Below are positions 281-32,211 of a stretch of DNA of 34,994 nucleotides, one piece after another. Both the position numbers and the translations under genes were made by a program. The notes below the pieces were generated by a model. The model was given only the letters and a program-made list of their open reading frames with translations. It made no database searches and was not told the origin of the DNA. Positions within the stretch are counted from its first letter, which is position 1; every line of letters begins with the position of its first letter. The stretch covers positions 1 through 34,994 of the forward strand of contig JAGPGT010000011.1 in assembly GCA_018055905.1 (NCBI GenBank). The letters run 5' to 3'. This stretch comes from Phycisphaerae bacterium (GTDB taxonomy: Bacteria > Planctomycetota > Phycisphaerae > Sedimentisphaerales > Anaerobacaceae).

Positions 281-3200
281 ATGAGTTTCTTGTCGGATGC
301 CGGTTACAGAGCCTTCTTGGAGGAGCACATCGGTGCACTTTCTGATGTTTTGGTACGGGAACATGTTACCAAAAGGTTCGAGGCATGGCGTCAGCAATAC
401 GGCAGCTACCGGCTGGCCGAGCGGGCGGTGGAACTGCTGAATTTGGAGCAGGACCGCCCGACTTGGCTATACCTTCGAGGGCCGTCGGATCTCGAGTGTC
501 TTCGAACCCTCGCGCAACGCCATCGGTTCGATGCCCGCCGGTTTCGGGGGTTTCTGGCGGAGGATTCGCTGTACGAGGGCCTCAAGCCCCAGTGGTTTTC
601 GCCATTTCCGGTTTGCCGAACAAGCGACTGGCGGGACTCTGAGGAGGCGGTTGTGATCACTCTCTCGGAGGATCGCCCGTTTCGCAACAACGGACGAGAC
701 TTGGGCAACGACTTCCTGACTCGTTTCATCGATGAATCCCGCCTCTCGATTCCGCAGGAGATCCACCGTAGATTGCAGGGGCGCCGGACGGTCTTATACG
801 TGGACTATCGAAAGGTCCAGACTCTAGCGGCTCTCGCGGAAGAGATTCGTAAAAACGCCGATTTCGCCACCGTGCTCTTGGTAAATTCGGTGCCAGGTTC
901 GGATTCGAAAGAGTTTGACGCGGTGATCGAGCAGCCCTTCTTCTATCTGTGGCCGTTGGTGTTCCGATCGCTGGCGCCGGACCTGTTTCATGTGAACGTC
1001 GGATGGGGGACGCAGGGACTTCCGTTCGCTCCTTTTGTCCCGAAAGATGCGATCATCGATTTCTACGATCTTTTGACCTTCGTTCGAGACGAGGCGCTGG
1101 ACGGTCATCACTCGGAACCTCTGGCTTTGACACGATCTTCGGAGAGAGTACTTTTCGAGCGGTTCCAGGGATTCGTCCACCGTTGCAGCGAAACAATCTC
1201 TGATTCGCTTGCAGCGATCTACCCTGGTAAACAGATCATCTCGGTGACGGAATACTTGCGAGAGCCGCTCTACGAGTCCCAGCCGGTCAGGGGGGATGGA
1301 ATCGTCCGACTCGTCTATGGCGGCCTACTGGTCCAGGAGGGCGCGGGCCCAGAAGACCCGCACTACAAGAACTTCTTCCAGATGGTGAAGTACTACTGCG
1401 GCGGAAACCTCCATCTGTATCTCTATCCGTCTCCCTATCTTTATGGATTCGGCGCACCGAAGGGGGTTGAGGAACTGATCCGACAGACGGGACGAAACAA
1501 CATTCACGCTTGCATGCCTTTGGCGGAGAATGAGTTTGTGCGGGAGATCACGCGGTATGACTTCGGCGTGTGTATGCCTACTCCGGAAGACGTCCGACCT
1601 ACGAGTTATGGTTATATCCTCCCCTCGAAGTTCATCACGTATCTGCGGGCCGGTTTGCCCATCGTGGTGCCGGAAGACCAGACATTTATTGCGGATCTGG
1701 TTCGGGATCATGGCCTTGGCGTGGTCTATGGATACGGCGACCACGACCGGATGCCTGACCTTCTGAATCGTCAGGACATGAAACAACTCAAGGAAAACGT
1801 GATGCGGTTCCGTTCCCGTTGGGCGATCGACCGAGGGGGCGAGAAGGTGGTGGCCCTGTACGATCGAATACTCCGAGCAAAGGCGGTTAAACGTCGCTTT
1901 ACACCAAGTTTTCCCGACAAACCGGAGGGTGTCAGTGCCGCGCCGGTTTCAGCCTCCGACTCCTCCGACGAGGCGATGTTGTCTTTGGATGGTCGGCGGT
2001 ATCTGTCCGAGCAGGAGTATTCGCGTTATGTGGAGGCCCGCATCAAACAGGCCGGGCCGTCCCTGGACAGTGAGTATGTGCGTAAGAAGCAGGCGGATTG
2101 GTCGGGTCGATATCATGTCGATCGGATGGCGCAGCGGGCTTGCGAGATGTTGGCCGAAATGGGGAATCCGCCATGCGTTTTGTACCTTGACGATATCCTG
2201 AGCCTGCATGCGACGGCCCAGATGCTCAAACAATCGAAATCGTTGACCCTGCGGGGTTTCATCGTAGAGGATGCTCTGTTGGGAAAACTGGATGCGCAAG
2301 TCTTCGGGGAATACCCGGTCTATTCGGCCGGACGCATCGAGGAGGTCGCAGTTCCGATTTTCAGCATCTCCGGCCGAACGCCAGCTGAGCGGAGGGGAAC
2401 TTGGCTGGCGAACGACTATCTTGAAAAATTCATCGACCTGAGTCGGTTCGATTCGGTTCGGGAGATGCGCCGGCGTTGGGACGGGAACGATGTCGTTCTG
2501 TATCCTCTGTACCGCGAGATTCACACCGTCGCGATTATGGCCTCGGCGGTTCGTCGTCGGGAGGAACGCCTGCGGAGCGTCGGCCTTTCGCCCCGGCCTT
2601 TGATTGACCAAGGATTCGACGAAACGATCGTTGAGCCATTTTTTTACCTTTGGCCGTTGATCTTCCAGATCGTGGAACCTTCGCTCGTGCATCTGAACGT
2701 GGGGTGGGGGATCCAGGCGATGCCCTTGTCGCCGTATATTCCCGACCGCCGACGGGCGGTCATCGATTTCTATGAGGTCCTTGGTTTTCTCCCCGATGCG
2801 TATTTCTCCAAGACGCATAGCACCGCCTCACAGGTCCGTGGCGCCGAAGAGCATTTCATCAAGAGCTACGATCACATCATTCACCTGTGTTCCGAGGAAA
2901 TCTCGACACGACTGGCGGAAAAGTACGATAGCCGAGCATCCATCGTCTCGGTGACCGAGTATCTTCAGGAACCGGTCTACAACAGGCCCTCGTCGAAAGA
3001 CGGCCTGATTCGTCTTGTATACGGCGGCTGTATGCTGGCCTCGACGAATCCCGACGACTTGTACTACCGCGCGTTCATGACCGTGGCGCCATACTTCGCA
3101 CGGGAGAATCTACACCTGTACATCTATAACAACCCCTATGTCGGCGTCCCCGGCGAGAACAACTCACTCCAGGAAGTGATTCGCACGCACGGCCTGGTGA

Positions 3201-6200
3201 ACATCCATTCCTGCGCGTCGCTGCCTTTGGAGGAGTTCGTCAGGAAGATCTCCGAGTACGACTATGGAACGACTCTGTTGCGTCCCAAGGATATGGACGG
3301 TTCGGACTACAACTATTTCATGGCCTACAAGTTCCTCAGCTATTTGCGAGCGGGCCTGCCGGTCGTAATTGACGCCGATAATCATTACATGGCGGGACTG
3401 GTCGAGCGATACAAGCTGGGGATCGTTCTGCAGGACCGCGACCTGGAGGACTTACCTCGTATTTTGAACGCCGCGGATCTTGCGTCGCTCAAGCAAAACG
3501 TCGTGGAGTTTCGAAACCGATTCAGTATCGACAAAGGCAGTGAGAAAGTTCTGAAGATCTACCGGGAGATTCTGGATCAGTCCGGTCTTGGCGCGATGCG
3601 CACTCTCGCGGCCAAGCGACGCATCGCACCCGCTCGGGTTCGTCGGTCTCGCCCCGCAGAAGGGACCGCGGTCGCGGCCCAGGGGACGGCGGATCGTTCG
3701 GATTCATTCCAGGAGATGATCGACGTCCTGGCCCGTAGGGAGAATCGGCTCTACTACCGCGACCAGTCGGCCAGAACGATGTCTTCCCTCGCCTCGCTCG
3801 CGCGACAGTTCGATCCCACCGTCATCGTCGAATTGGGCACGCTGGGTGGGCTTTCGCTTCGAACGTGGATCGCTTCGACGCAGCAAACCCGGATCTACGC
3901 AGTGGACCTGAGTTTCCAGACGCTTCGCGAGACGATGGAGTTTCTGCCGGCGGATCTCTCGCGAGTGACGCTCCTGGAGCAGGACATCCTTCAGACCGAC
4001 TTCTCCCGACTCTGGACGGCTCAGGACAAGGTGATCCTCTTCATCGACGCGCATGATCTTCCGAATGTGCCGATCATGAAGCACGTCCTCGAAACGGCTT
4101 TGCCCTCGCTGCCCGACGGCAGCCTAGTGGTCGTCGACGACCTTTGGTTTAGCGAAAAACGATTGACATCCGACAACGCCAGGGGCTTTCTGGAAGATTG
4201 TGTTTGCAGCGAGATCGACGAACTGCAGTGCTTCCGCGGCCATTACGCCCCCTATCATGAAGGCGGCTCCTTCATGGGTTTCGCAGAGGTGATCCCGTTG
4301 CTGGAGTTCGTCAACCGCCATGGCATCCCGCTTGTTCACGAGCCGGGCAGTAAACACGTGTTTTTCGTGTGGGAGAAAGGGTATCTTTCGTCCGAGCGGG
4401 TCTGGGCGACTCGTGGCCAAGAAGACTATGGCTCGGTGCTGTATCATCCCCTGGAGACCGTGCCGGTTCTGGTCCGAAATGCCCAGAAGATGCAAGAAAT
4501 CGCGTTCCGATACCGCCAGAAGGACATTCGTGGCGCCGCCGAGAGTCTTGCGAAGGCTCTCGAACAGGACCCTCACGATCCGGGACTCTCATATGGTTTG
4601 GCGGTGTGCCTGGCCCGGACAGGCCTGCTGACGCAGGCTCGGGATGTGCTGGAGAAGAATCTCCACGATTCCGCCAGTCCTCGTTATCGGCGTTTGTATG
4701 AGGATCTGGTCCGGCGGACGGGGGGGGCTGCGCCATGTCCTGCCGGACAGGAGCAGCCGTTGCGGTCAAACCCGGGTTTGACGATCTTTGCCCTGCCCAA
4801 AGCGTTTACTGGGCACACGGCGATCATTCAAAAGAACGCCCTCCGCAGTTGGGCGAGGTTGGATCCCAAGCCGGAGATCATCCTCTTCGGCGACGAACCC
4901 GGCACTGGCGAGATGGCGGTCGAGATCGGTGCCAGGCATGTCCCGGCAGTCGTCCGCAATGAGTTGGGTACGCCTCGGGTCGACTCGCTCTTCGAGACGG
5001 CGCAGAGTCTTGCCTCGCACGGTATCCTGGCCTACGTAAATGCGGACATCATTCTCATGCAGGACTTCGCTGCAGCGGTGCAGAAAGTGCAAAGCGAGCT
5101 TTTGCAATTTCTGCTCATCGGACAGCGATGGGATCTCGATGTCCTGGACGAGATCCATTTCTGTGAATCGGGCTGGCAGGAATCACTCCGGCGACAACGG
5201 GATGAACGAGGCACGCTCCATGCCGAGTCTGGCTTGGATTACTTTGTCTTTCGCAAAGGTCTCTGGTCCCAGATTCCTCCTTTCGCCATCGGGCGGACCG
5301 CCTGGGACAATTGGCTAGTGGCCGAGCCCCAAAGACGGGGCATCCCCATCGTCGACGGCACCGAGTTTATTACCGCAGTGCATCAGGATCACGATTACCA
5401 GCACGTTGTCGGTGGCCGATGCGGAGCTTGGAACGGACAGGAAGCCCTGAAGAACCGGTCTTTGGCCGGGCCCCTGGACGAATCTGCCTGTACCGCAGGG
5501 GCCTCCTGGATTCTGCGGTCCGATGCTCGCCTCGTTCGGACCTTGCCGCGTCAGCCCCAGGCGGGAACGCCGGTCTTCCGGACCCGCCGCATTAGCTGGC
5601 TGGTCAGGCAAGCCCAATGGCTGACGGATCGTGGGAAACCCGAGTTGGCTGCATGCAAATGGGAGGAGACGCTCAGTCTTCTTGACAAACTGATGTCTTT
5701 TCGGCGGCGGTCGGGGGCATCTGTCCCGTGGTTCGACGAAGGTCGAGTGATGCGATGCTATATGGCGGCGTGCGTTTCCTTGGCCAACTGCTGCGCCAAA
5801 CTGGGGCGCATCGAACAGGCTGCGGCGAGTTACTCAATGTTCCTGGATTCTCCGTGGATCAAGATCCCTCCCGCTCAGCGAGAGGAGTTGACAAGATTAC
5901 GCGACCAATTGATCAGTCCTAGATCGGCGAATCGAACCCCTGCCTCAGAGCTTCCCGACATTTCCGCCGGCAAGCCAGCCGCCGGCAAACGCATCGCGTT
6001 GATTGTCTCCATTCCGGATCGTCGAGAGGGCCTCCAGGGCGTCATTCGGGACATCGAGGACCAAGTCGACGAAATCCGAATTCTGCTCAACGAGTTCTCG
6101 ACCGTTCCACAGGATCTATACGCCTGTCGGAAGGTGAGCCGGATCGAGACCAGTCGTACGGGGGAACAGTTCGCCAGCGGGGTTTGGACTCTACTTCGAC

Positions 6201-9200
6201 CGGAGGACGACGCGTATGTGTTCGTTCTCGACGACGATATCCATTATCCGGCCGATTACGTTCAGAAGATGATTGCCAGCATCGAAGCCCACCAGCGACG
6301 GGGGGTCGTGGTCGTCCACGGGATGGATTTCTGCGAACCGTTCGCCGATTGCGTACGCGATCGGCTCGTATACCGATTCGAGTCTGCCCGTAGCTACGAC
6401 GGGGTGGTTGACGCCGGGGGAGTGGGTACGCTGGCTTTCCACACCGATACCATTCGACCGCAACTGAAGGATTTTCCAATTCCCAACTTCCGCGATCTCT
6501 GGTTCGCCGTGCTGGCGGCACGGGCGGGAGTGCCTATCATTTGCGTCGCGCGCGAGCCGTGTTGGCTACGATCTCGGCATGTTCCGGGCAAGCAACTGTG
6601 GTATCTGTTTAACGGACAGGGATGGAGAGAGCAAAAGAACCGGATTTTCCGAGAGAACCTTTTGCCGCGACTTGACCTGCGAGCTCCGAACCGGTGCAGG
6701 ACCCGGGATTTTACCATATTCTGCATCACCAATGGACGCAGTACATTCGAGTACTCCTCGCGGTCGGTCATGGAATCCGCGGATTTGAGAGACCGGATCG
6801 TGGTGTTGTCGAGTTTCAAGTTCTTGGACGCAATGACGCAGTGTGTCGAACAATGCGAGACCCCCTATTTCCTTAAGGTGGACGACGATTTCATCCTCCA
6901 TCCCAAAGCGCTGACGTACATGCAAAATCGGGTGCTGGCCTATCCTCGCCCGCAAGAGTTGGGAATCTATTATTTCCATCTCTGGGAGGATTGGACGTCT
7001 CGTGTCCGCGAGAGCATTAAAATTTACAGCGTTGAGGCCATTAGGAAGATCGGCGGATTCCGCCCCGACCATCTGGGCAAGGTGGACCGCACCACGCTGG
7101 CGCGACTGGAACAGGCTGGGTTCAAAATCGTAGCCGATCCTAGTGTTGTGGCGCTTCACGCCTGCGGGAGTTGGGAGGAACAGCTGGAGTACGAACGGCT
7201 CTGGAGTGATGACGCCGGCACGCCCTATCAGAAACCCACCCACGACGCGATGAAGGCATACTGCGGCACCAAGCCTCTGGAGCAACAGTATGAAATGAGA
7301 TTGGGTTTTCTGGAGTCTGTCAATCAGCGGTTGGAAACGCCGTTCCATGAGTTCCTGAGGGGCGCAGTTACTCCCTCGCTGCCTGTACCCCCCGCCGCGG
7401 CGGCAGGAAATTCGGGAGTCTTACGTGACAATGGACTGACGATCTTTGCTATGCCCAAGGCTTTCACCGGCCACGTGGGAACAATCCAGAAGAATGCCAT
7501 TCGCAGTTGGGCGTTGCTCGAGCCCAAACCGGAGATCATTCTGTTTGGGAATGAAACCGGCATTCGTGAGATGGCCGAAGAGGTGGGGGCCCGACACGTG
7601 CCTTCCGTCAGCCGCAATGAATTTGGCACTCCTTTGGTTGACAAGCTCTTCCATGCCGCTCAGGAGCACGCGAGCCACGATGTTCTGGCCTACGTGAACG
7701 CGGACATGATTCTCCTGCAGGACTTTATGCAGGGTGTGCAAACCGTTCGGCTTCGTCTTTCGGAGTTCCTTGTCATTGGGCAACGATGGGACATCTCGAT
7801 TCTCCAGGAGATCGATTATCGTGACCCGCAGTGGCGGTTGTTGCTGCAAAAACAATTGCAGCAGGACGCGATGTTACATGCGGAGTCCGGACTGGATTAC
7901 TTCGTTTTTCGCAAAGGCCTGTGGCCTCAGATCCCCCCGTTCGCCATCGGCAGGACCGCTTGGGACAACTGGCTGGTCATGAATCCTCGCAAACGAGGGA
8001 TCCCTGTGATCGACGCCACCGAAGGGATCACCGCAGTGCACCAAGATCATGCCTATGGGCACATGGCCGGGGGTCGTCATGAGGCGTGGAACGGCGTCGA
8101 GGCGAAGAGGAATCGCGTCCTGGCCGGACCCGCTGACCATCACGGATTGACGACCGGCTCTACATGGCTGCTGCGTGGCAACGGCGAACTGGTCGAGACC
8201 GGACCTCGGCAACCACGGTACATCGGTGCGGATTATCGAAATCAACGAAGCGCCTGGCTCATCCGGCAGGCGGAGGAACTTCTATCCGTGGGTGCCCGAG
8301 AACTGGCTGCGTGCAAGTGTGAAGAGGCGATATCGTGCATGGACGGTTGGCGGGAACTCCGACGAATAGGATGCATTCCCTCCCAAAACGAGGACGGCGT
8401 CGACATTGTCGGTCGGTATGTCGCCTGCCATACACTGCTGGCCCAGTGTTACATGCAGATGGGGCAACCTGAGCAGGTGGTCGCCACTTACACGCGACTT
8501 CTGGCCGATCCGCATGTGCGGCTCCCCGAAGCACAAAGGCAGTCCATCATACAGGCGCGCGATCTCGTGGCGACGAAACTGCAGGCTAGGACTCCGACGG
8601 CGGATTCGCTCCGCGTGCCTTCGATAGAAGAAGCAGCCACGGTTTCTGGGGCTCCTGTTTTCCGTGGGGTCTGCGGGGTTTCAAATTCAGGCTCCCGACC
8701 CCAAGTCACGGTGGTGACGGCCTGTCGCAACGCGCAACGGCATCTGAGGGAGTGCGTGCGCAGCATTCTGGGACAAACCTTGAGAAATTGGGAGCTGATT
8801 CTCATCGACGACGGCAGCACCGATGAAACACGGGGGATCATCGAGGAGTTCGCCCGTAGCGATCCTCGCATTCAGGCGCACCATTTCCCCGACAATCGCG
8901 GTCCTTACGTGCGGCGCAATTTCGCGATCCGCCGCGCCGCTGCGGATTTTGTCGTGATTCAGGACGCCGACGACATCATGTTTCCGACGAAGCTTCAACA
9001 ACTCTATGAGGCGATTACCCGGGATGCCAGTTTGGGGATGGTCGGTTCTGCGCATCGAACGTTTCTCGAAACGTTCCGCAGTCTCGAACTGACCGAGCGA
9101 TGCGAGTTGCCTGTCGATCATGAGACGATCGTCGCTTCCTGCGTGTCCTGGCGGGCGGCCATCAGCCACGGAACCGCCATAATTCGAAAATCGCTGTTCG

Positions 9201-9919
9201 ATACGATTGGCCTCTACGACGAAAATCCCTTTGCGGCCGACGCATTCTGGTCGGCCAAACTGGCGTTGTACTCCCAGGTCGGCGCTCCCGTGAAGCTGGC
9301 GAACCTTTCGGAACCTCTGACGTTGATCCGCGTTCATCCCGGCAGCCAGACGCAAACGCTGCCGGTGTTCGATCCCCGAGGCCGGCGGGTTCGGTATCGC
9401 CACTATTGCGAGTGCAAGCTCCGACGGATCCGCGAGAAGTGGAGGCAACAGCCGGATCTGGACGTCGCGGCGGAACTCCGCAACTGTTCGTGCTCCGATT
9501 TTCTCGTCCGGTTCAAGGCCAAGATCATTGAGTGGGAGAGCCAGGAGCTTCCGGTCCATTTTGTGAATGACTTGTTGGTCGGCGCGATGTCTTCGTTCCG
9601 CAAGAAAGCCTATGTTAGTTGTATGATCATCCTGAACGGATTGGAGGTCATGCGGCGGGACATTCCGCGTAAGGTCAAGGGGTTCGATTTGCTTCGAGCC
9701 TTGGCGCTGTGCGGTGCCGGATTGCGTCAGCGAGGTCTGGCGCAGCTGGAGCAGGAGATCGAACACCACGACAATCCCCTCGCCCGTCGATTCCTCCGGG
9801 ATCTGGACGAGCAAGGCGATTCGACGGACGTTCAGGGCTGGTTCCTTCAAAATATGTCCACCCTGGAACTTCGACTGCCGGGGGAAGAGCGGGAGCGGAT
9901 CCGCGTGGCCATGGCCTGA
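281..9919 (+). CDS. Giant multidomain glycosyltransferase/methyltransferase protein (about 3,212 aa)
   Basis: ATG at 281 is preferred over GTG at 272 because AAAGGTG (268-274) sits 6 bases before it. Modules seen, by residue: two diverged GT-B-like units (about 1-535 and 565-1105), each with an FxYLWPL-x-F core, an NVGWG motif and a Y/SK-x-YLRAGLPVV segment typical of GT4-like C-domains; a class I methyltransferase-like domain (about 1145-1385) with ELGTLGG at 1184-1190 and DD at 1286-1287; TPR-like helices (1406-1474); a GT-A-like module (1500-1770, NAD at 1587-1589) with a helical tail to 1884; GT-A-like segments with DDD at 1984-1986 and 2201-2203; a second copy of the NAD module plus tail (2386-2770, NAD at 2473-2475); a GT2 module (2807 on) with DDG at 2843-2845 and DADD at 2895-2898; and an unassigned helical C-terminus. 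No membrane segment or signal peptide was noticed, so it is probably cytosolic. Its place before fliD suggests modification of flagellar protein, which is inference. Acceptor and sugars are unknown. Confidence 0.85.
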   Translation: MSFLSDAGYRAFLEEHIGALSDVLVREHVTKRFEAWRQQYGSYRLAERAVELLNLEQDRPTWLYLRGPSDLECLRTLAQRHRFDARRFRGFLAEDSLYEGLKPQWFSPFPVCRTSDWRDSEEAVVITLSEDRPFRNNGRDLGNDFLTRFIDESRLSIPQEIHRRLQGRRTVLYVDYRKVQTLAALAEEIRKNADFATVLLVNSVPGSDSKEFDAVIEQPFFYLWPLVFRSLAPDLFHVNVGWGTQGLPFAPFVPKDAIIDFYDLLTFVRDEALDGHHSEPLALTRSSERVLFERFQGFVHRCSETISDSLAAIYPGKQIISVTEYLREPLYESQPVRGDGIVRLVYGGLLVQEGAGPEDPHYKNFFQMVKYYCGGNLHLYLYPSPYLYGFGAPKGVEELIRQTGRNNIHACMPLAENEFVREITRYDFGVCMPTPEDVRPTSYGYILPSKFITYLRAGLPIVVPEDQTFIADLVRDHGLGVVYGYGDHDRMPDLLNRQDMKQLKENVMRFRSRWAIDRGGEKVVALYDRILRAKAVKRRFTPSFPDKPEGVSAAPVSASDSSDEAMLSLDGRRYLSEQEYSRYVEARIKQAGPSLDSEYVRKKQADWSGRYHVDRMAQRACEMLAEMGNPPCVLYLDDILSLHATAQMLKQSKSLTLRGFIVEDALLGKLDAQVFGEYPVYSAGRIEEVAVPIFSISGRTPAERRGTWLANDYLEKFIDLSRFDSVREMRRRWDGNDVVLYPLYREIHTVAIMASAVRRREERLRSVGLSPRPLIDQGFDETIVEPFFYLWPLIFQIVEPSLVHLNVGWGIQAMPLSPYIPDRRRAVIDFYEVLGFLPDAYFSKTHSTASQVRGAEEHFIKSYDHIIHLCSEEISTRLAEKYDSRASIVSVTEYLQEPVYNRPSSKDGLIRLVYGGCMLASTNPDDLYYRAFMTVAPYFARENLHLYIYNNPYVGVPGENNSLQEVIRTHGLVNIHSCASLPLEEFVRKISEYDYGTTLLRPKDMDGSDYNYFMAYKFLSYLRAGLPVVIDADNHYMAGLVERYKLGIVLQDRDLEDLPRILNAADLASLKQNVVEFRNRFSIDKGSEKVLKIYREILDQSGLGAMRTLAAKRRIAPARVRRSRPAEGTAVAAQGTADRSDSFQEMIDVLARRENRLYYRDQSARTMSSLASLARQFDPTVIVELGTLGGLSLRTWIASTQQTRIYAVDLSFQTLRETMEFLPADLSRVTLLEQDILQTDFSRLWTAQDKVILFIDAHDLPNVPIMKHVLETALPSLPDGSLVVVDDLWFSEKRLTSDNARGFLEDCVCSEIDELQCFRGHYAPYHEGGSFMGFAEVIPLLEFVNRHGIPLVHEPGSKHVFFVWEKGYLSSERVWATRGQEDYGSVLYHPLETVPVLVRNAQKMQEIAFRYRQKDIRGAAESLAKALEQDPHDPGLSYGLAVCLARTGLLTQARDVLEKNLHDSASPRYRRLYEDLVRRTGGAAPCPAGQEQPLRSNPGLTIFALPKAFTGHTAIIQKNALRSWARLDPKPEIILFGDEPGTGEMAVEIGARHVPAVVRNELGTPRVDSLFETAQSLASHGILAYVNADIILMQDFAAAVQKVQSELLQFLLIGQRWDLDVLDEIHFCESGWQESLRRQRDERGTLHAESGLDYFVFRKGLWSQIPPFAIGRTAWDNWLVAEPQRRGIPIVDGTEFITAVHQDHDYQHVVGGRCGAWNGQEALKNRSLAGPLDESACTAGASWILRSDARLVRTLPRQPQAGTPVFRTRRISWLVRQAQWLTDRGKPELAACKWEETLSLLDKLMSFRRRSGASVPWFDEGRVMRCYMAACVSLANCCAKLGRIEQAAASYSMFLDSPWIKIPPAQREELTRLRDQLISPRSANRTPASELPDISAGKPAAGKRIALIVSIPDRREGLQGVIRDIEDQVDEIRILLNEFSTVPQDLYACRKVSRIETSRTGEQFASGVWTLLRPEDDAYVFVLDDDIHYPADYVQKMIASIEAHQRRGVVVVHGMDFCEPFADCVRDRLVYRFESARSYDGVVDAGGVGTLAFHTDTIRPQLKDFPIPNFRDLWFAVLAARAGVPIICVAREPCWLRSRHVPGKQLWYLFNGQGWREQKNRIFRENLLPRLDLRAPNRCRTRDFTIFCITNGRSTFEYSSRSVMESADLRDRIVVLSSFKFLDAMTQCVEQCETPYFLKVDDDFILHPKALTYMQNRVLAYPRPQELGIYYFHLWEDWTSRVRESIKIYSVEAIRKIGGFRPDHLGKVDRTTLARLEQAGFKIVADPSVVALHACGSWEEQLEYERLWSDDAGTPYQKPTHDAMKAYCGTKPLEQQYEMRLGFLESVNQRLETPFHEFLRGAVTPSLPVPPAAAAGNSGVLRDNGLTIFAMPKAFTGHVGTIQKNAIRSWALLEPKPEIILFGNETGIREMAEEVGARHVPSVSRNEFGTPLVDKLFHAAQEHASHDVLAYVNADMILLQDFMQGVQTVRLRLSEFLVIGQRWDISILQEIDYRDPQWRLLLQKQLQQDAMLHAESGLDYFVFRKGLWPQIPPFAIGRTAWDNWLVMNPRKRGIPVIDATEGITAVHQDHAYGHMAGGRHEAWNGVEAKRNRVLAGPADHHGLTTGSTWLLRGNGELVETGPRQPRYIGADYRNQRSAWLIRQAEELLSVGARELAACKCEEAISCMDGWRELRRIGCIPSQNEDGVDIVGRYVACHTLLAQCYMQMGQPEQVVATYTRLLADPHVRLPEAQRQSIIQARDLVATKLQARTPTADSLRVPSIEEAATVSGAPVFRGVCGVSNSGSRPQVTVVTACRNAQRHLRECVRSILGQTLRNWELILIDDGSTDETRGIIEEFARSDPRIQAHHFPDNRGPYVRRNFAIRRAAADFVVIQDADDIMFPTKLQQLYEAITRDASLGMVGSAHRTFLETFRSLELTERCELPVDHETIVASCVSWRAAISHGTAIIRKSLFDTIGLYDENPFAADAFWSAKLALYSQVGAPVKLANLSEPLTLIRVHPGSQTQTLPVFDPRGRRVRYRHYCECKLRRIREKWRQQPDLDVAAELRNCSCSDFLVRFKAKIIEWESQELPVHFVNDLLVGAMSSFRKKAYVSCMIILNGLEVMRRDIPRKVKGFDLLRALALCGAGLRQRGLAQLEQEIEHHDNPLARRFLRDLDEQGDSTDVQGWFLQNMSTLELRLPGEERERIRVAMA

Positions 9920-9982
9920 GCGGATTGCCTGAAATTTGAGGACCCGGCGTTTTCGGACGATAACAAGAGCGTGTGGGATTTG

Positions 9983-10035: not shown

Positions 10036-12057
10036 ATGGGCGAACTCAAGTTATCCGGACTAAGCACCGGGATCGACACCTCGACGCTGGTCAAACAACT
10101 TATGGCCATTGAACGAAAGAGGATCACCGCCTACACGAGTCGACAGGAGACCTACACCAAGAAGAAAGAGGCCCTCAGCGAACTTAGCACCAAACTCGAT
10201 GCGTTGAAGAAAGCGACGTCGGATTTGTCCGACGCCGGCAGCCTTCGGGCTTATACTACCTCTTCCAGCGATACCGACATCGTGACGGCCGAAGCCAACA
10301 ACACGGCCTTCGAAGGCAGTCACACCGTTATTGTCAAACAACTTGCGACGCTGGAGAGATGGGTCCACAACAGTGGTTTGGAGTATGCCGAGAGCGAGGT
10401 GGGCGCCGGCACCTTCATCTATTCCTACAACAATCAGGAGGTGATGGTCACCACGACAAGCGAGACTTCGTTGCAGGAACTGGCCGACCTCATCAATAAC
10501 GACCCCGAGAACGCAGGCGTGACAGCAAGTCTGCTCTTTTACAACGGCACGTATCATCTCGTGCTGAACGGCAACGATGCCGGTTCCGATTACGCGATCA
10601 AGATCAACGCCAGCAACACCGAGGTCTGGCAGACGCTCTCCTCCCTGACGGTCGGGACCGAGGATGCTGCTCTGTCCGATAAGATCGTGAGTCTGGATCA
10701 GTTCAGTGGGGTATTGGCCGGCGATGAATCCATCACCATCACCGGGACTACGCACGACGGCGTCGCGGTCAGCAACACGCTGATGGTCACCGAACGTACC
10801 ACGCTTAGCCATCTGATCGAAGAGATCGACGACGCGTTCGCCGGTACGGCGAAGGCGGTTCTGGTCAACGGACAGATCCGGCTGGTCGATGCAACGAATG
10901 GGGTCAGCCAGATGCAGTTGAGTTTGACGTATAACGCCGGTTCGGGGGGGACCTCTTTGACGTTGCCCACGGTGAGCCGGTACACGCAGGGGGGGAGTGT
11001 GTCGGCCAATCTCTCCGGGTTCGGCGTCGACGATTTTATTCAAACGCAGGTGGCTCAAGACTCAAAAATCAAGGTGGACGGTTATCCTTTGGGGGAGGAT
11101 GAGTGGATCACCCGTAGCTCCAACACCGTCAGTGACGTCATTCGAGGGGTGACGCTTCACCTGCACCACACCGGGACCGTCAACGTGGGTTTGACGCGTG
11201 ACACCGAAACGGTCAAGAAGTCGCTCAAGGCGTGGGTGGACGCCTACAACGAGGTGGCGTCCTTTGTGGACAAGAACACCAGCTACGACAAGGAGAAGAA
11301 AGAGGGCGGCCCCCTGATGAGCGACCAGACAATATCGAGCCTCCTGAATAATCTGCGCCTTACGCTCATCCAGCGGACTCGTGGCTTTGTGATTGATGTC
11401 GACAGTTTTTTGATGCCTGGACAAATCGGCGTGGAACTCGACGGCGACGGGCTCTTGAATTTGAAGACAAGCGCCTTGTCCGATGCGCTCACCAAGGACT
11501 ACCGCGGCGTGCTGGACCTGATCGGCGCCAACAAGACAGGCGGTTCCGACAGCAACGTGATCAAATTTTACAGCGCATCGAGCAAGAACACGACCGCCGG
11601 GGCGTACAAGGTCGAAGTCACTGTCTCTGGAGGCACGATCACCGGCGCGAGAATCCGATCCGAAAACGACACCGTGTGGCGAGACGCCAGTTTTTACGAC
11701 AATATTGTCATGGGCGACAACACGTTTGACGAATACAATCGTCCGCTCTATCCGGAAAATGGGTTGCAACTGAGCGTGGATCTCAGTCAGGACGGAACTT
11801 TCACCGCGACGGTCCGCGTCAAACAGGGATTCACCGGGGCGATGGAGAACGTTCTGGACAACGTGATGGACAAAACCCGCGGCATGCTGACCCTCAATCA
11901 GAATGAGATCCAAAGCCAGATCAAACGTTTGCAGGATCAGATCGACAAAGAGGAAAAACGCCTCACGCAGGTGGAGGAACGACTGAGCGCGAGGTATGCC
12001 CGACTGGAGAAGAGCTTGACCCTTTTGCAGAACCAGTTCGCCGCTCTGGTGAGGTAG
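10036..12057 (+). CDS. fliD: Flagellar hook-associated protein 2, filament cap FliD
   Basis: 673 residues. FliD forms the oligomeric cap at the filament tip, where it folds exported flagellin into place. The N-terminus (LSGLSTGIDTSTLVKQLMAIE, then a heptad-rich helix to about residue 65) is the standard FliD_N signature. The C-terminal 60 residues form another strong coiled coil rich in Q, K, E and R; these paired ends make the D0/D1 stalk. The middle (about 70-600) is beta-rich and T/S/N/G-rich, making it longer than the roughly 470 residues of enterobacterial FliD. AGAAAGG at 10019-10025 serves as a ribosome-binding site about 10 bases before ATG. It follows the giant glycosyltransferase gene by 116 bases and converges on flhB with 32 bases between. 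A GACGATAA at 9956-9963 resembles a sigma-28 -10 element but has no matching -35 at the right distance, so its promoter is unresolved. Confidence 0.95.
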   Translation: MGELKLSGLSTGIDTSTLVKQLMAIERKRITAYTSRQETYTKKKEALSELSTKLDALKKATSDLSDAGSLRAYTTSSSDTDIVTAEANNTAFEGSHTVIVKQLATLERWVHNSGLEYAESEVGAGTFIYSYNNQEVMVTTTSETSLQELADLINNDPENAGVTASLLFYNGTYHLVLNGNDAGSDYAIKINASNTEVWQTLSSLTVGTEDAALSDKIVSLDQFSGVLAGDESITITGTTHDGVAVSNTLMVTERTTLSHLIEEIDDAFAGTAKAVLVNGQIRLVDATNGVSQMQLSLTYNAGSGGTSLTLPTVSRYTQGGSVSANLSGFGVDDFIQTQVAQDSKIKVDGYPLGEDEWITRSSNTVSDVIRGVTLHLHHTGTVNVGLTRDTETVKKSLKAWVDAYNEVASFVDKNTSYDKEKKEGGPLMSDQTISSLLNNLRLTLIQRTRGFVIDVDSFLMPGQIGVELDGDGLLNLKTSALSDALTKDYRGVLDLIGANKTGGSDSNVIKFYSASSKNTTAGAYKVEVTVSGGTITGARIRSENDTVWRDASFYDNIVMGDNTFDEYNRPLYPENGLQLSVDLSQDGTFTATVRVKQGFTGAMENVLDNVMDKTRGMLTLNQNEIQSQIKRLQDQIDKEEKRLTQVEERLSARYARLEKSLTLLQNQFAALVR

Positions 12058-16043: not shown

Positions 16044-16778
16044 TCAGTCGTTCGTCTTGATTGCCGCGATCAGGATCTGCGGTTGTCCGGGCAAAGCGGA
16101 GTCTTGGCCTGCCCAACTGGCCCCCGGACCGGCGCCCCACCAGAACACACGCCAAGGAGCGGATCCGGCTCTTTGAGAGGAGGAGAGCAGATTCCGACGC
16201 AAGAAATCCGCCGCAGCATGGGCACGACGGGCTGCAAGCATCTGGGCCTGTGGTCCGGCGACCCCCTTTTCCGGCAGTCCGACGACATAGAGCATGTTGT
16301 TCGCTGGTTCCAGGTTCTGTCGAACATTCAGACAGAAGCGGGAGAGCCACTGCTCACTGCCTTCGTCTAGAACCGCCTGTCCCGGAAGGAACCTGACGCT
16401 GGCGACGGAGAACTCCACCCGATCGCCTTTCAGTTGCGAGGGCTGAGTCTGCATGGATCGCCGCAGAGTTTCGAAAAGCCTTCTTCGCTGTTCCTCGCGG
16501 GCGTCTTTGGTGATTCCTCGCGGGATTTCCGGTTGGTCGATCGTGTATTTGATCTTAGGGTGTTCGAAATTCGTCGGGGTCTGGATGCCGAACCCCGTCT
16601 TGACGGAATCCAGGAACATCATAGCGAGTCTTTTCCCGTCGTCGAAGAGGGTGTCGTCTCGGATGTGTCCCATACTCAACAGGAGCACGAAGAACGTCAA
16701 CAAGTTCGTCGTCATGTCGGAGAACGTAATGATCCACAGAGGAACCGCGGAGTTGGATTCTTCGGTTCGTTTGGCCAT
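16044..16778 (-). CDS. motB2: MotB-family stator protein, second paralogue
   Basis: 244 residues. MotB-type proteins pair with MotA to form the torque-generating ion channel and anchor it to peptidoglycan. After a short polar N-terminus comes one membrane helix, WIITFSDMTTNLLTFFVLLLSM. It holds the expected ion-binding aspartate at residue 21 in the family's W-x-x-x-F-S/A-D context. The periplasmic region has a recognisable but weak OmpA-like fold. The RRAHAAADFLRR stretch aligns with the LSxxRAxxV helix, but the usual Asn and Ser before the conserved Arg are replaced by Ala. The start overlaps the motB1 stop by one base (TAATG), so translation is likely coupled. The gene symbol is a label for the second copy. 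Confidence 0.85.
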   Translation of the reverse strand: MAKRTEESNSAVPLWIITFSDMTTNLLTFFVLLLSMGHIRDDTLFDDGKRLAMMFLDSVKTGFGIQTPTNFEHPKIKYTIDQPEIPRGITKDAREEQRRRLFETLRRSMQTQPSQLKGDRVEFSVASVRFLPGQAVLDEGSEQWLSRFCLNVRQNLEPANNMLYVVGLPEKGVAGPQAQMLAARRAHAAADFLRRNLLSSSQRAGSAPWRVFWWGAGPGASWAGQDSALPGQPQILIAAIKTND

Positions 16779-17488
16779 TATTGGATGCCCCCTTCCAACA
16801 AGACGATTTCCAGCATCCTTTCCTTGCGGTGATAAACCACGGCGGAAGAACCCGGTTCCTCAGGGGGGGCGATGCTTTCGGTCGCGATGCTGAATCGGTG
16901 ACGGTCCAGGTTCTCCATGGAAACGAAGTAATCAATCACGGCCATGGCTCGGGCCAGTGCGGCGTCCATACCGACGGGTTGGTCTGGGGGGCCGTTCTCG
17001 CTGATGACGATGGTGTTGGACGCGTCTTTCAGAAAGGCCGCCATGACGGCCAGGAAATACCGTCCATCGGACGACAAGGCTCTGCCCCGGCCGAGAAAGA
17101 TTTTCTTGGACGGGACCAGAAATACTTTGTGACGTCGATAGTCGGCGGTTTGAAAAGTTTCGTTGATCGCTCCATCTTGCGGCCGCGAGGTAGAGGGGGT
17201 GGGCGTCTCGCTGCCGAAGTCCGGATGTTCTGTGTTCACCACACGCGGCTTTGCAAGCATGGCGCTTTGGTCTTTGTTGCCTGAGGTCTCGATGGGAGGT
17301 CCGAACACCGAACGCATGGCACTTCCGAAATTCAGAGCATCCACCTGTGGTTGCTGGCTGAACTCGGAGAAGGTCACCAGCAGGACGAAGAACGTCAGCA
17401 GCAGGTTCATGCAGTCGCTGAACGTCACCATCCACTGGGGCGCGCCTGCGGCCGCCTCGGATGGGGTTTCTTTCTTCGGTCGTGCCAT
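16778..17488 (-). CDS. motB1: MotB-family stator protein, first paralogue
   Basis: 236 residues. The single N-terminal membrane helix (WMVTFSDCMNLLLTFFVLLVTF) carries the ion-binding aspartate at residue 25 in the same FSD context as its neighbour, so both copies could conduct ions. The linker (about 60-125) is polar and P/S/T-rich. The C-terminal half (KIFLGRGRALSSDGRYFLAVMAAFLKD, then IVISENGPPDQPV and LARAMAVIDYF) has the layout of an OmpA-like peptidoglycan-binding domain. The conserved TD and NxxLSxxRA features are degenerate. It lies 10 bases after motA and overlaps the second motB by one base. The pair might form a mixed MotB1/MotB2 dimer around MotA. The symbol only marks order in the operon. 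Confidence 0.86.
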   Translation of the reverse strand: MARPKKETPSEAAAGAPQWMVTFSDCMNLLLTFFVLLVTFSEFSQQPQVDALNFGSAMRSVFGPPIETSGNKDQSAMLAKPRVVNTEHPDFGSETPTPSTSRPQDGAINETFQTADYRRHKVFLVPSKKIFLGRGRALSSDGRYFLAVMAAFLKDASNTIVISENGPPDQPVGMDAALARAMAVIDYFVSMENLDRHRFSIATESIAPPEEPGSSAVVYHRKERMLEIVLLEGGIQ

Positions 17489-27464: not shown

Positions 27465-28538
27465 TCATTGCTCTGATGAGGCCTGCGGCATAGCCGGGCA
27501 GGCGAAATGGGGAATGCCACAGGCGGGTTCCACCTTCCTTGTATACCATTTGCGCCGCGCAATCTCGATCGAGCGAAGAAAACTGTGCTTGAACCTCGTG
27601 AGAGAGAATCGTTCGAGGACGATCTTCCGAGCTTCTTGCCCCATCCTGCGGGCCAAATTCTCGTCTCGGAGAAGGATATGGGCATAATGCCGTAGTTCTT
27701 TGGGGTCGTCGCTGAGGAATCCCGAGATGCCGTGCTTGATGGGCGAGGTGGGGTGGCGGTTGCCCAGAATGGGCAGTCCTGCGGCCATGGCTTCGGCCGT
27801 GGCCATGTTGTGTCCGGCCTCGAATCGCGGATCGGCCGTGTGAATGTAGAACCGGTGGGACTGAAGCATGGTTTTGAGATGGTCCCAGTCCCTCGCGGCT
27901 TCCACGCCGGGGATGTCCGGATTGTGGCCCACCAACGTGATCGGAATGCCTTCGAACGCCTGCTCGTGGAAATCCCACATGAGGATGTGCCGGCGGCTGC
28001 TGATGAAATTGCAGATTCGGATTCCTTTTGCTTGGTGCCCCTGCCAGGGAGGGTAGTCCTCGACATCGATGCCGAAATGCACGATGTCTTCGGTATAGCC
28101 CCACGACTCCCCTTTGAACATGGACGTTGCCACGACGTGCGCGCCGACCAGTTCGACGTAGGTGCGGAGCAAGGTCTTCATCTGCCGGGGATCGACGCCG
28201 GAGTTTTCCTCGCAGAGACGTCCCTCCAACGAGTGGTGGAGCACAAGCACTCTGGGCTCGGGTCGGGACCGCACATCGAGCAGGTCCGTGGTGTTGTGTG
28301 CGATGATACAGTAATAGAGGGTGGGGCAGACCAGTGCCTGGGGCAACGAGATCAAACGGGATCGGGGAGGCACGGGCCTCATCCGTTCGTCCCATCCCCG
28401 GTTGTATTTGCCCGGAAGGTCCACCACGATGTCAAGGTTGTAGCCGAGGGCTCCGAGCTGGTGGACCCACGGTTCATGGCAATTGAAGACCAACAACGTT
28501 TTGTCACAGGTGGGCTGGAGGAGGCCCTGGTTTTCCAT
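27465..28538 (-). CDS. GT-B glycosyltransferase (GT4-like)
   Basis: About 357 residues from the ATG at 28538. An ATG at 28673 would add 45 residues; neither has a convincing ribosome-binding site, and 28538 is preferred because it places the first beta strand (KTLLVFNCHEPWVHQLGALG) near the N-terminus as in most GT-B enzymes. The N-domain includes ALGYNLDIVVDLPG, YYCIIAHNTTDLLDV and VLVLHHSLEGRL. The C-domain has RICNFISSRR, ITLVGHNPDIPG and the donor-binding-like stretch FEAGHNMATAEAMAAGLPILGN, then FSLTRFKHSFLRSIE. It presumably transfers a nucleotide-activated sugar in the cytosol. It lies between fliK and the flagellin gene on the opposite strand, which suggests but does not prove a role in filament glycosylation. 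Confidence 0.8.
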   Translation of the reverse strand: MENQGLLQPTCDKTLLVFNCHEPWVHQLGALGYNLDIVVDLPGKYNRGWDERMRPVPPRSRLISLPQALVCPTLYYCIIAHNTTDLLDVRSRPEPRVLVLHHSLEGRLCEENSGVDPRQMKTLLRTYVELVGAHVVATSMFKGESWGYTEDIVHFGIDVEDYPPWQGHQAKGIRICNFISSRRHILMWDFHEQAFEGIPITLVGHNPDIPGVEAARDWDHLKTMLQSHRFYIHTADPRFEAGHNMATAEAMAAGLPILGNRHPTSPIKHGISGFLSDDPKELRHYAHILLRDENLARRMGQEARKIVLERFSLTRFKHSFLRSIEIARRKWYTRKVEPACGIPHFACPAMPQASSEQ

Positions 28539-28781
28539 AGATGAAAATGTTTCCCACTTGATGATACTTTGTTTTCCCCACAGCCGAAAACCATTCCCCG
28601 GCTTCAGGCAGTTGTCGCCTCGGCGATGCAAGTCGTGCTTCCCGGCCTTGGCTGCATCTGGATTATCGGCCATCGAATCGGAATTCCATGAGAAAACCGA
28701 GCCGGTGTGAGTTCCAGAATTCTGGGCAGCTCGGTACTCGTCCAAGGGAAAGCCGATCGGCGGGATTATGCGGACGCAGAA

Positions 28782-28896: not shown

Positions 28897-28923
28897 TCAA
28901 GTTTCCCATCTTTTCATCGATAA
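28897..28923 (+). promoter_or_regulatory. Sigma-28 (FliA) promoter for flagellin
   Basis: TCAAGTTT, 11 bases, ATCGATAA. The FliA consensus is TAAAGTTT-N11-GCCGATAA, so the -35 matches at 7 of 8 positions, the -10 at 6 of 8, and the spacing exactly. Transcription would begin near 28930, giving a leader of about 85 bases before the flagellin ATG. Class III flagellin genes are typically under FliA; fliA and flgM are not in this window. Confidence 0.82.
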
Positions 28924-28927
28924 TCAG

Positions 28928-28978
28928 CGTAAAGGCCAACAAACTTTGTACAGTCGTAAAGCAAGCGCTTTCGTAAAG
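28928..28978 (+). repeat. Triple CGTAAAG repeat in the flagellin leader
   Basis: CGTAAAG occurs at 28928-28934, 28955-28961 and 28972-28978, that is, from the predicted transcription start to about 40 bases before the start codon. The middle copy's AAAGC (28958-28962) can pair with GCTTT (28967-28971) around a four-base loop, forming a small hairpin. Ribosome-binding site TAAGGAG follows at 29001-29007. The repeats could be protein- or RNA-binding sites for leader control. No known regulator motif was recognised. Confidence 0.5.
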
Positions 28979-30424: not shown

Positions 30425-31909
30425 CTAGAACCTCCTCGTCAATCCTATCTCGACGATATGGTTGTCGTTCTTGCCCCTCTGATCAGGGTCTTCGTACCGA
30501 TAGGCGGTCTCGATTCGCCAATTTTCCGAGGCGAAGAAGGCCAAGCCGGCCTCGTAGATGTTCCTAGACGCCTCCGCATTTGTTTTCAGGCTTGATTTCT
30601 GGTGATCAAAGGACAGGTCAAGGAGCAGATTCTCCCAGACATAGTGGGAGAGTCTGACGAATAGATCCGAGGAATTGGTGCCCATGTGGTGGCCGATGAT
30701 CCTGCCCTCATACGTGTAGCCTGATGTGTAGAGGCTGTGCGTGTAGAACAGGTCATCGAAACCCGACACGTGGTTGTTGGCATACTCGACGCAAAGGTCG
30801 GTCCGACCTGTCTTGAGAAGGTCGTTGAACTGTGCGCCGAACACCTCTCCCCACTTGCTCGGCATCCAGCCCGCTTCATCCTCCCCGGCGAGGTCCGCGT
30901 AAAAACGAACTGACCGCAGGGGAGCATCCTGCCACAGGGGAACCAACACGGAGACGTCGAAACCCGCCAACTGGTTGTTCTCATCCTGCTCCGTGAGGGA
31001 CAAAAACATTTTGCCGTAGTCGAAGAGGTCCACTCGCGGTACTCCCCGGCCTGCGAACATCACGACCCTCGATGCCCCCAAGTCGACCGCCGGATGGGGC
31101 TTGACGCTGACACGAAAACCCGAGAGTTTGGCTTGCGGGAAGTCCCGGTCGTCCTCCAATTGTGCGAGGAACCACTGGCTTTTGACCGGCCCGAGAGACT
31201 TGAAGATCCAGGGGAGTTGGATAGGCTGGGGATTGGTCAGCTTGAGCATTGTGAAAGGCTGGGCGTTGTTGCTCATGAGCATGGAGCCGTGGTGGCCCGG
31301 CCCCCACCAGAGAGAATCCTTGCCCGCTTCGATTTCCAAGTCGCCGATCATGACTTTACCGTAGCCTTCGATCAGTTCGACATCGCCGTCGGTTTGCGAG
31401 GAATCGACGTACTCGGGGTGCAGGTAGAAGGCGACCCGGTTCATCATCGCGCCTCGCGTCGCGAATCCGGCGCGGGAGTTCGACCCTCGCTGGAATTCGT
31501 CGCCCCGGATGTTTTCGATGTCCGGCGCGCGGCGCGCATGCAGATAGGCGACGTACGGGTCCTCCAGCGGTTTGACGAAGGATTCCCCATGCCAGCCTTC
31601 GATCAGTCCGATGAGGATCAACTCGCCCTGGTACTCGTGCTGGAGCCGATTCACGAGGGACTGGAGCAAGGGGGGCACGTCGTTCCTTCGTTCAAGAGTC
31701 AGCATCGCCTGGCCGATGTGGCGCGCCATTTCGACCCGCGACAGCGGTTTGATCGTCAGCATGGCGCTGTCGATCAGGCCGTAATTGGCCAGCTTGTCCA
31801 CCGCGTCATAGCTCCAATGGTTCAAGGGAACATTCGTGGAAACCAGAGCCGACGACGGCAGGGCCGAGAATCCGATGAGAACGATGAGAGCCGATGCAAT
31901 CCGTTGCAT
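30425..31909 (-). CDS. Capsule assembly Wzi-family outer-membrane protein
   Basis: 494 residues from the ATG at 31909, chosen because it starts a clean signal peptide (MQRIASALIVLIGFSALPSSALV); the longer frame to 31957 adds a polar leader. Wzi proteins are outer-membrane beta-barrels that hold capsular polysaccharide on the cell surface. Mature residues 25-80 (NHWSYDAVDKLANYGLIDS and SRVEMARHIGQAM) resemble an SLH-like helical segment. The rest is beta-rich with alternating patterns. It has the family's GDLEIEAGKDSLWWGPGHHGSMLMSNNAQPF block, and ends IVEIGLTRRF with a C-terminal Phe as in many outer-membrane barrels. No good ribosome-binding site was seen. It is divergent from the polysaccharide exporter and probably serves the same surface polymer. 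Confidence 0.85.
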   Translation of the reverse strand: MQRIASALIVLIGFSALPSSALVSTNVPLNHWSYDAVDKLANYGLIDSAMLTIKPLSRVEMARHIGQAMLTLERRNDVPPLLQSLVNRLQHEYQGELILIGLIEGWHGESFVKPLEDPYVAYLHARRAPDIENIRGDEFQRGSNSRAGFATRGAMMNRVAFYLHPEYVDSSQTDGDVELIEGYGKVMIGDLEIEAGKDSLWWGPGHHGSMLMSNNAQPFTMLKLTNPQPIQLPWIFKSLGPVKSQWFLAQLEDDRDFPQAKLSGFRVSVKPHPAVDLGASRVVMFAGRGVPRVDLFDYGKMFLSLTEQDENNQLAGFDVSVLVPLWQDAPLRSVRFYADLAGEDEAGWMPSKWGEVFGAQFNDLLKTGRTDLCVEYANNHVSGFDDLFYTHSLYTSGYTYEGRIIGHHMGTNSSDLFVRLSHYVWENLLLDLSFDHQKSSLKTNAEASRNIYEAGLAFFASENWRIETAYRYEDPDQRGKNDNHIVEIGLTRRF

Positions 31910-32037
31910 AACACATTCTGAGATTAGACTCGTGACAGTCCAAACCGTGGGTTGCAAGACTAAACCATTTGTTCCTCAGGGTCAAGAGGTCGTCATCACT
32001 GCCGCCAGGCCGATTTTTATGAGGCTTCCAAATACTC
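31910..32037 (-). promoter_or_regulatory. Leader and weak candidate promoter of the Wzi-like gene
   Basis: About 130 bases upstream of the Wzi-like gene on the minus strand. The best candidate is TTGACC (31980-31985) with a 17-base spacer to TAGTCT (31957-31962). The -35 is good and the -10 is poor, so this is tentative. No gene was seen here. Confidence 0.3.
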
Positions 32038-32065: not shown

Positions 32066-32211
32066 ATTCGCGGTTGAATCGGGTGAACGAAGACGACCGC
32101 GATGGTCCAAACGGAGATCGCCGCAAAGGGTTTTTGTCTTGATAGGTCATTGGAGGTTTGGAAGCGGGTTGGGCTTCCTGCCCCGTTCTGGAAGGCACAA
32201 AGGAGTGTGGA

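Follow-up and report, generated by a model that had tools for sequence, protein, structure and literature searches.

A 3,212-residue modular glycosyltransferase-methyltransferase encoded beside fliD in a Phycisphaerae bacterium, with a proposed role in flagellin glycosylation

We analysed a window of 34,994 nucleotides, which is one whole contig of a 3.9 Mb MAG (352 contigs) of a planctomycete of Phycisphaerae/Sedimentisphaerales type. Its largest gene, referred to here as the giant, occupies the left end (Table 1). An earlier note on this DNA had described a single uninterrupted frame of 9.6 kb, and that description was borne out. Codon-position GC is uniform across all 9.6 kb, no competing overlapping frame of comparable length with coding-type GC was found within 281-9919, and a AAAGGTGA-type site precedes the ATG; a GTG at 272 is an alternative start that would give 3,215 residues. 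An independent MAG carries a full-length orthologue (L122, 3,202 aa, 75% identity), and dN/dS by module is 0.06-0.21, pointing to purifying selection in every module. The orthologue and these ratios indicate that the giant is a maintained gene, neither a chance frame nor a decaying one. A search of its own genome with residues 1-1,073 returned no close match besides the giant itself. The protein has no transmembrane-like stretch (the highest 19-residue mean, 1.72, lies within module C), and Pfam matched no carrier domain of the PKS or NRPS type at E up to 1, so the term ‘assembly line’, as used in the earlier note, is an analogy only.

Table 1. Features of the window, with modules of the giant in order
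Feature	Position	Strand	Details
Upstream gene, 3' end only, cut by contig edge	3..260	+	HemN_C 5.6e-5
Giant modular glycosyltransferase-methyltransferase gene	281..9919	+	single uninterrupted frame, 3,212 aa from ATG 281
Module A1	281..1915	+	residues 1-545; GT-B fold, putatively Gtf3-like
Module A2	1994..3655	+	residues 572-1125; A1 paralogue, 38% identity, E 4e-123 (self-comparison)
SAM-methyltransferase (MT) module, Methyltransf_24-like	3722..4465	+	residues 1148-1395; motifs VELGTLGG, FIDAHD/VVDD
TPR stretch, MT-B1 interval	4490..4720	+	TPR_19, 54.8 bits
Module B1, GT-A enzyme family	4778..5560	+	residues 1500-1760; NAD motif at 1587
TPR-like helices behind B1	5573..5920	+	five helices, high pLDDT
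Module C, KfiA / heparosan-synthase GlcNAc-transferase-like (GT45)	5987..6664	+	DDD at 1984
Module D, putative GT-A	6683..7375	+	residues 2135-2365; DDD at 2201
Module B2	7436..8215	+	residues 2386-2645; B1 paralogue, 55% identity; NAD at 2473
TPR-like helices behind B2	8228..8578	+	TPR_1 match at 2716-2739
Module E, GT2	8693..9235	+	residues 2805-2985; DADD at 2895
C-terminal tail of module E	9236..9916	+	E and tail recur as one unit in other giants
fliD, filament cap	10036..12057	+	FliD_N 9e-24, FliD_C 9e-40; 116 bp downstream of giant
fliC, short flagellin, 269 aa	29016..29825	+	Flagellin_N 2.6e-35, Flagellin_C 1.7e-23
wzi	30425-31957		just past fliC-fliS
SLBB/wza gene	32158-34749		after wzi

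The count of about seven transferase segments plus a methyltransferase also held, as A1, A2, B1, B2, C, D and E plus MT. Module A1 gave a profile match to Gtf3 (4w6q, E 2e-4, over 84 positions), and its model (pLDDT 77.7) has a GT-B fold whose top matches are Gtf3/GtfC (E 3.5e-9); identity between module A and the Gtf3 folds is just 11-14%, with a TM of 0.34-0.39 of the query. The MT module matched Pfam Methyltransf_24 below the cut-off (E 2e-4) and the O-methyltransferase 3tfw (E 1e-3). Module B was modelled as a GT-A fold with pLDDT above 90. Because the alignment was shallow, C and D came out at low confidence in the AlphaFold model, and three-dimensional evidence therefore covers modules A and B only. 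Module C aligned with 8vh7 (E 1.7e-18) and 5z8b (E 2e-17), including DDDI..YP..Y; its sequence and DDD donor-binding motif make it a GT45 (KfiA) homologue, for which GlcNAc transfer is predicted. Module D resembles glycosyltransferases weakly (Galactosyl_T, E 0.19; hhalign to GT2, P 0.014 around the DDD) and matched none of the PDB profiles. Module E scored 128 bits against Glycos_transf_2, its nearest solved structure being the CgT of dGT1 (5hea, E 5e-17), and with its tail forms a 413-aa unit that is repeated within the giants of G045, G032 and G011. This unit was considered as a C-terminal anchor common to all giants and rejected, being terminal in genus codes g1, g38 and g25 and internal in others.

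Standalone homologues of module B, 273-344 aa long and from other phyla, are 35-51% identical to B1, and the invariants of the family, including NxD and HQ.H, are kept in B1, B2 and the standalone members. Since the matches in Moorena, Acidobacteria, Omnitrophica, Anaerolineales and an archaeon have one module and lie outside flagellar loci, we take B to be a widespread family and rejected it as a marker of the giant system. GT2-bearing ORFs of 1,500-1,960 aa also occur in Cyanobacteria (Moorena, Xenococcaceae; L131, L132, L133, L146), where those of Moorena lie close to a module-B gene; no fliD was found near these ORFs.

The metal/acid motifs are intact in B1, B2, C, D and E. With these motifs and purifying selection, the proposition that most modules are catalytically dead, raised earlier as a way to refute the fused enzyme, is not borne out. 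That some modules are inactive scaffolds and few transfer sugars, a situation compatible with the explanation we favour below, seems unlikely to us: A1 is the least conserved module (56% identity, dN/dS 0.21; MT is the most conserved, at 0.059) and D is weakly assigned, but the retained motifs extend to D itself and selection is purifying in all modules, A1 included.

The earlier note had placed the giant beside filament genes, which is right for fliD, the next gene; fliC lies ~19 kb from the giant, past a minus-strand basal-body and export operon. This operon reads flhB, fliR, fliQ, fliP, fliO, two motB-like genes, motA, fliJ, fliI, fliH, fliG, fliF, fliE, flgC and flgB, of which flhB, fliR, fliP, fliO, motB/A, fliJ and fliE were checked by Pfam or NCBIfam and the others named from size and order. 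The two MotB-like genes stand in tandem beside motA (16044-17488, minus strand), an arrangement kept in relatives L035 and L038. Past the operon come a fliK-like gene, a GT1-like gene, fliC, fliS, wzi and SLBB/wza; in relatives an EPS cluster continues from there. The GT1-like glycosyltransferase (426 aa, 27465-28745, minus strand), between the fliK-like gene and fliC, is a possible second flagellin-glycan enzyme. A flagellar-sigma-like site, TCAAGTTT-N11-ATCGATAA, lies at 28900-28935, ~100 bp before fliC, and another, GACGATAA, at 9950-9965 in the giant-fliD gap, ~80 bp before fliD. In this gap a sigma-70 scan found no promoter and a terminator scan gave results near chance. Same-genus relatives have similar -10 boxes ~80 bp before fliD, which may have a promoter of its own.

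On the other side of the giant, the truncated gene at the contig edge encodes a product 38% identical to a 565-aa ORF in the upstream cluster of L033, and is probably a radical-SAM protein. B12-binding radical-SAM genes, another radical SAM and an SDR lie upstream of the giant in same-genus relatives; in L033 (10966-19631) at least three of the B12-binding genes, the other radical SAM and the SDR stand in a row. Our literature searches found no paper on B12-radical-SAM proteins with flagella.

Next, we asked how far the pairing of giant and fliD extends. FliD is present in 84 of 119 relatives, and in 70 of these relatives there was enough sequence to read the DNA upstream of fliD. We counted an ORF as a giant if it reached 1,000 aa and was one of the three nearest co-directional genes upstream; by this measure, a GT gene of such size stands just upstream of fliD in 39 of the 70 (by family code, f1 28/42, f7 9/12, f3 1/1, f2 1/6, f4 0/2 and f5 0/7), the largest being 4,015 aa (G045). 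In a second collection of named genomes, partly the same MAGs as the first set, all nine loci with both genes (L122-L128, L130, L142) have the giant and then fliD, and the named matches to the giant are Planctomycetota (Phycisphaerae, Phycisphaerales, Sedimentisphaerales). In ten giant genomes, every GT2-bearing frame above 1,000 aa among the matches listed is at the fliD locus, and the largest elsewhere among them is 981 aa. Giants in the set occur only in fliD-bearing genomes; genomes lacking FliD have small single-module matches only. The giant thus follows fliD, remaining with it in G025 although fliC is 1.5 Mb away. The adjacency to filament genes that characterizes flagellin glycosylation islands is found both in the window, 116 bp from fliD, and in the 39 relatives. 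The earlier note had asked whether orthologues lie mainly at non-flagellar loci such as capsule clusters, which in these relatives they do not, and whether the giant always accompanies fliD and fliC: it goes with fliD, patchily, and not always with fliC. A 325-aa ORF stands between giant and fliD in three genera (L048, L055, L056).

Module content differs from giant to giant. In some relatives the chain contains radical-SAM/B12, pyruvyl-transferase or other methyltransferase modules, and in some it is divided among 2-4 genes; in G021, G113, G063 and G040 the modules are spread across 3-4 adjacent ORFs. The 3,706-aa giant of G011 combines B12-binding/radical-SAM with nine GT stretches (six GT2, two Glyco_trans_1_2 and one Glycos_transf_1), that of G050 has a pyruvyl-transferase, GT9, TPR and two GT2, and that of G018 has Methyltransf_23, GT9, TPR and two GT2. 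Of 22 giants, 21 contain GT2, 8 contain TPR_19, 5 radical SAM, 5 GT9 and several a methyltransferase. The order MT-TPR-B is constant wherever MT occurs, and in 392 genomes of the phylum no instance of this cassette came from outside the order.

In relatives, the region upstream of giants holds further genes of the GT, MT, radical-SAM and sugar-dehydratase kinds. The families seen most often in the 89 upstream ORFs are radical SAM (24), TPR (16), B12-binding (14), GT2 (12), Methyltransf_11 (10) and those of nucleotide-sugar epimerases and dehydratases, with Epimerase in 6, and the sugar-biosynthesis or sugar-modifying genes of the cluster, with the window itself cut at base 1, are represented in relatives by Epimerase, GDP_Man_Dehyd, methyltransferases and radical SAM. 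Given the radical-SAM fusion in G011 (L046), the separate upstream radical-SAM genes may belong to the pathway of the giant. Of 15 genomes examined, 14 lack Maf (PF01973), that of the window among them, in agreement with the earlier suggestion that the giant stands in for Maf.

Presence of the giant matches the length of the flagellin. In each of the 34 giant genomes whose flagellin could be read, a short one (about 260-300 aa) is present, accompanied in G113 by an additional flagellin of 395 aa. Without a giant, 20 of 27 genomes have only long flagellins (at least 414 aa) and 7 have short ones (Fisher p 1.4e-10, treating genomes as independent, which they are not); at the genus level the counts are 22:0 versus 5:18. 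In genus code g64, the flagellins are 273-274 aa in G096, with a giant, and 426 aa in G102, without; in g1, the length is 273 aa in four giant genomes, against 461 (G007) and 274 (G002) in two genomes without. A short flagellin without a giant beside fliD was found in G002, G009, G053, G090 and G091. On the FliD tree there are 4-5 independent changes, none of which opposes the match and which are so few that a sign test does not reach significance (median p 0.5). The tree groups by giant status, and because the same-genus G096 (L089) and G102 (L119) lie far apart on it, the flagellar locus, along with its trait, may pass from one lineage to another. Family code f5 (L057, L060, L061, L077), which has no giants, has FliD proteins of 1,050-1,190 aa and several flagellin copies of 480-560 aa. 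With the synteny in relatives and the flagellin-length match, the flagellar link, which the earlier note had by position only, now goes beyond position.

Our preferred explanation, which we consider fairly likely, is that the giant is a soluble multi-enzyme of the cytoplasm, which assembles a methylated oligosaccharide on the short flagellin before export. As a member of a flagellin glycosylation island, it would use its seven fused transferase modules to add sugars successively to a glycan on the flagellin monomer. The methyltransferase, in its fixed MT-TPR-B block, would cap or mark one sugar, and the TPR stretches would either keep the acceptor in place or set the modules apart. The short flagellin, consisting of the D0/D1 core only, would be exported after glycosylation, and the large methylated glycan would substitute for the missing D2/D3 outer domains, clothing a core-only filament. 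Synteny, intact motifs and the short flagellin speak for the part of the earlier claim that places a fused enzyme at flagellin or FliD; the glycan and sequential action, and with them the acceptor, the sugars, the order of steps and the function, are what we infer.

Because giants go with short flagellins, we regard flagellin as a better candidate acceptor than FliD. That the acceptor is FliD, or FliD and flagellin together, with the adjacency of the genes reflecting an enzyme-substrate pairing, would suit G025, where the giant stays with fliD far from fliC, and the clustering of the FliD tree by giant status, which splits g64. We nevertheless consider it improbable: the giant tracks flagellin length rather than the S/T content of FliD, which is 0.213 with a giant and 0.215 without and was dropped as a sign of a FliD acceptor, and the few copies of FliD would be a poor return for such an enzyme.

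We think it quite doubtful that the giant makes a repeat unit or side chain of the neighbouring exopolysaccharide or capsule (wzi, wza, Bac_transf and Wzx cluster). The start of this cluster, with wzi and wza, is within the window past fliC, Bac_transf and Wzx are on the same contig ~26-50 kb off in g1, g38 and g25, and KfiA, which module C resembles, is a capsule enzyme. However, the flagellar block separates the giant from wzi and wza, and in G025, G047 and G018 giant and fliD stay next to each other while Bac_transf is 0.4-1.1 Mb off (the nearest copies in the single-contig genomes G025 and G047) or on other contigs; the restriction of giants to fliD-bearing genomes also argues against it. 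Transfer en bloc, by a separate enzyme, of a lipid-linked or free oligosaccharide built by the giant would fit the capsule-type GT modules and the additional GT genes of the island but is very unlikely: the neighbours of the giant in the window and the 25 commonest upstream families include neither a flippase nor an oligosaccharyltransferase, and the flagellin O-glycosylation described in earlier studies is cytoplasmic and pre-export (PMC4065374, PMC7591256).

Stepwise glycosylation of flagellin by the giant would share elements with several known systems. Two of its module types have their nearest matches among enzymes of protein O-glycans: on the streptococcal SRR adhesin Fap1, Gtf3 and the bifunctional dGT1 extend an O-glycan stepwise on an exported protein (PMC5063993, PMC5207161), and module A has its best fold matches, at low identity, in this Gtf3; module E resembles the CgT of dGT1, itself a fused two-GT enzyme. 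The Fap1 pathway has two GT domains per chain, the rest in separate genes, and an adhesin as acceptor, whereas we propose flagellin for the giant. In Aeromonas, flagellin glycosylation precedes export (PMC4065374). Caulobacter FlmG (596 aa) fuses a TPR domain to a GT-B and acts on flagellins, which the TPR binds (PMC7591256); it has one GT, and for the giant TPR-flagellin binding is an assumption. The Clostridioides difficile type B GT2 (CDR20291_0242), at a flagellar locus, is fused to a methyltransferase; the addition of two rhamnoses and their methylation have been proposed for it (PMC5207246). It has one GT2 domain and a PF08241-type MT, against the seven transferase modules of the giant and its Methyltransf_24-like MT. 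In Enterobacteriaceae and Pseudomonas, flagellin islands hold GT, methyltransferase and sugar genes at the filament locus, patchy and strain-variable, with GT41-MT fusions (PMC4875605, PMC8306008). The giant locus is similarly composed, patchy and variable, but enterobacterial islands have 1-3 separate GTs each, whereas giants have up to nine GT stretches per chain, before fliD. Module C aligns with KfiA and the Pasteurella heparosan synthase PmHS2 over 218 aa, including the DDD motif. PmHS2, which synthesizes a long capsule polymer, also contains a GlcA-transferase half, to which nothing in the giant matched; the match is limited to residues 305-528 of the PmHS2 chain, so the giant does not have the dual-GT architecture of that enzyme. 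The Maf-type nonulosonic-acid system differs in the gene that most of these genomes lack.

Neither fused GT-MT enzymes nor variable flagellin islands are new. In the literature searched we found no published account of a seven-transferase and MT chain that is order-wide, shuffled and tied to fliD and short flagellin, and no paper on flagellin glycosylation in Phycisphaerae. Known flagellin glycans are made by separate enzyme sets, with at most two catalytic domains per chain among the examples compared. With module lists that differ between relatives, domain order would reveal the structure of the glycan, and these differences offer a natural test of protein order against sugar-chain order. 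The tie to short flagellin suggests that sugar has been traded for the outer domains of the protein. Altogether, we put forward, tentatively and at somewhat less than even confidence, an order-wide planctomycete system in which a shuffling mega-enzyme of 1,000-4,000 aa, or a few adjacent chains, would build a large, lineage-specific methylated flagellin glycan that replaces D2/D3, such that the diversity of the filament surface may be encoded by the module content of one gene and not by the flagellin sequence.
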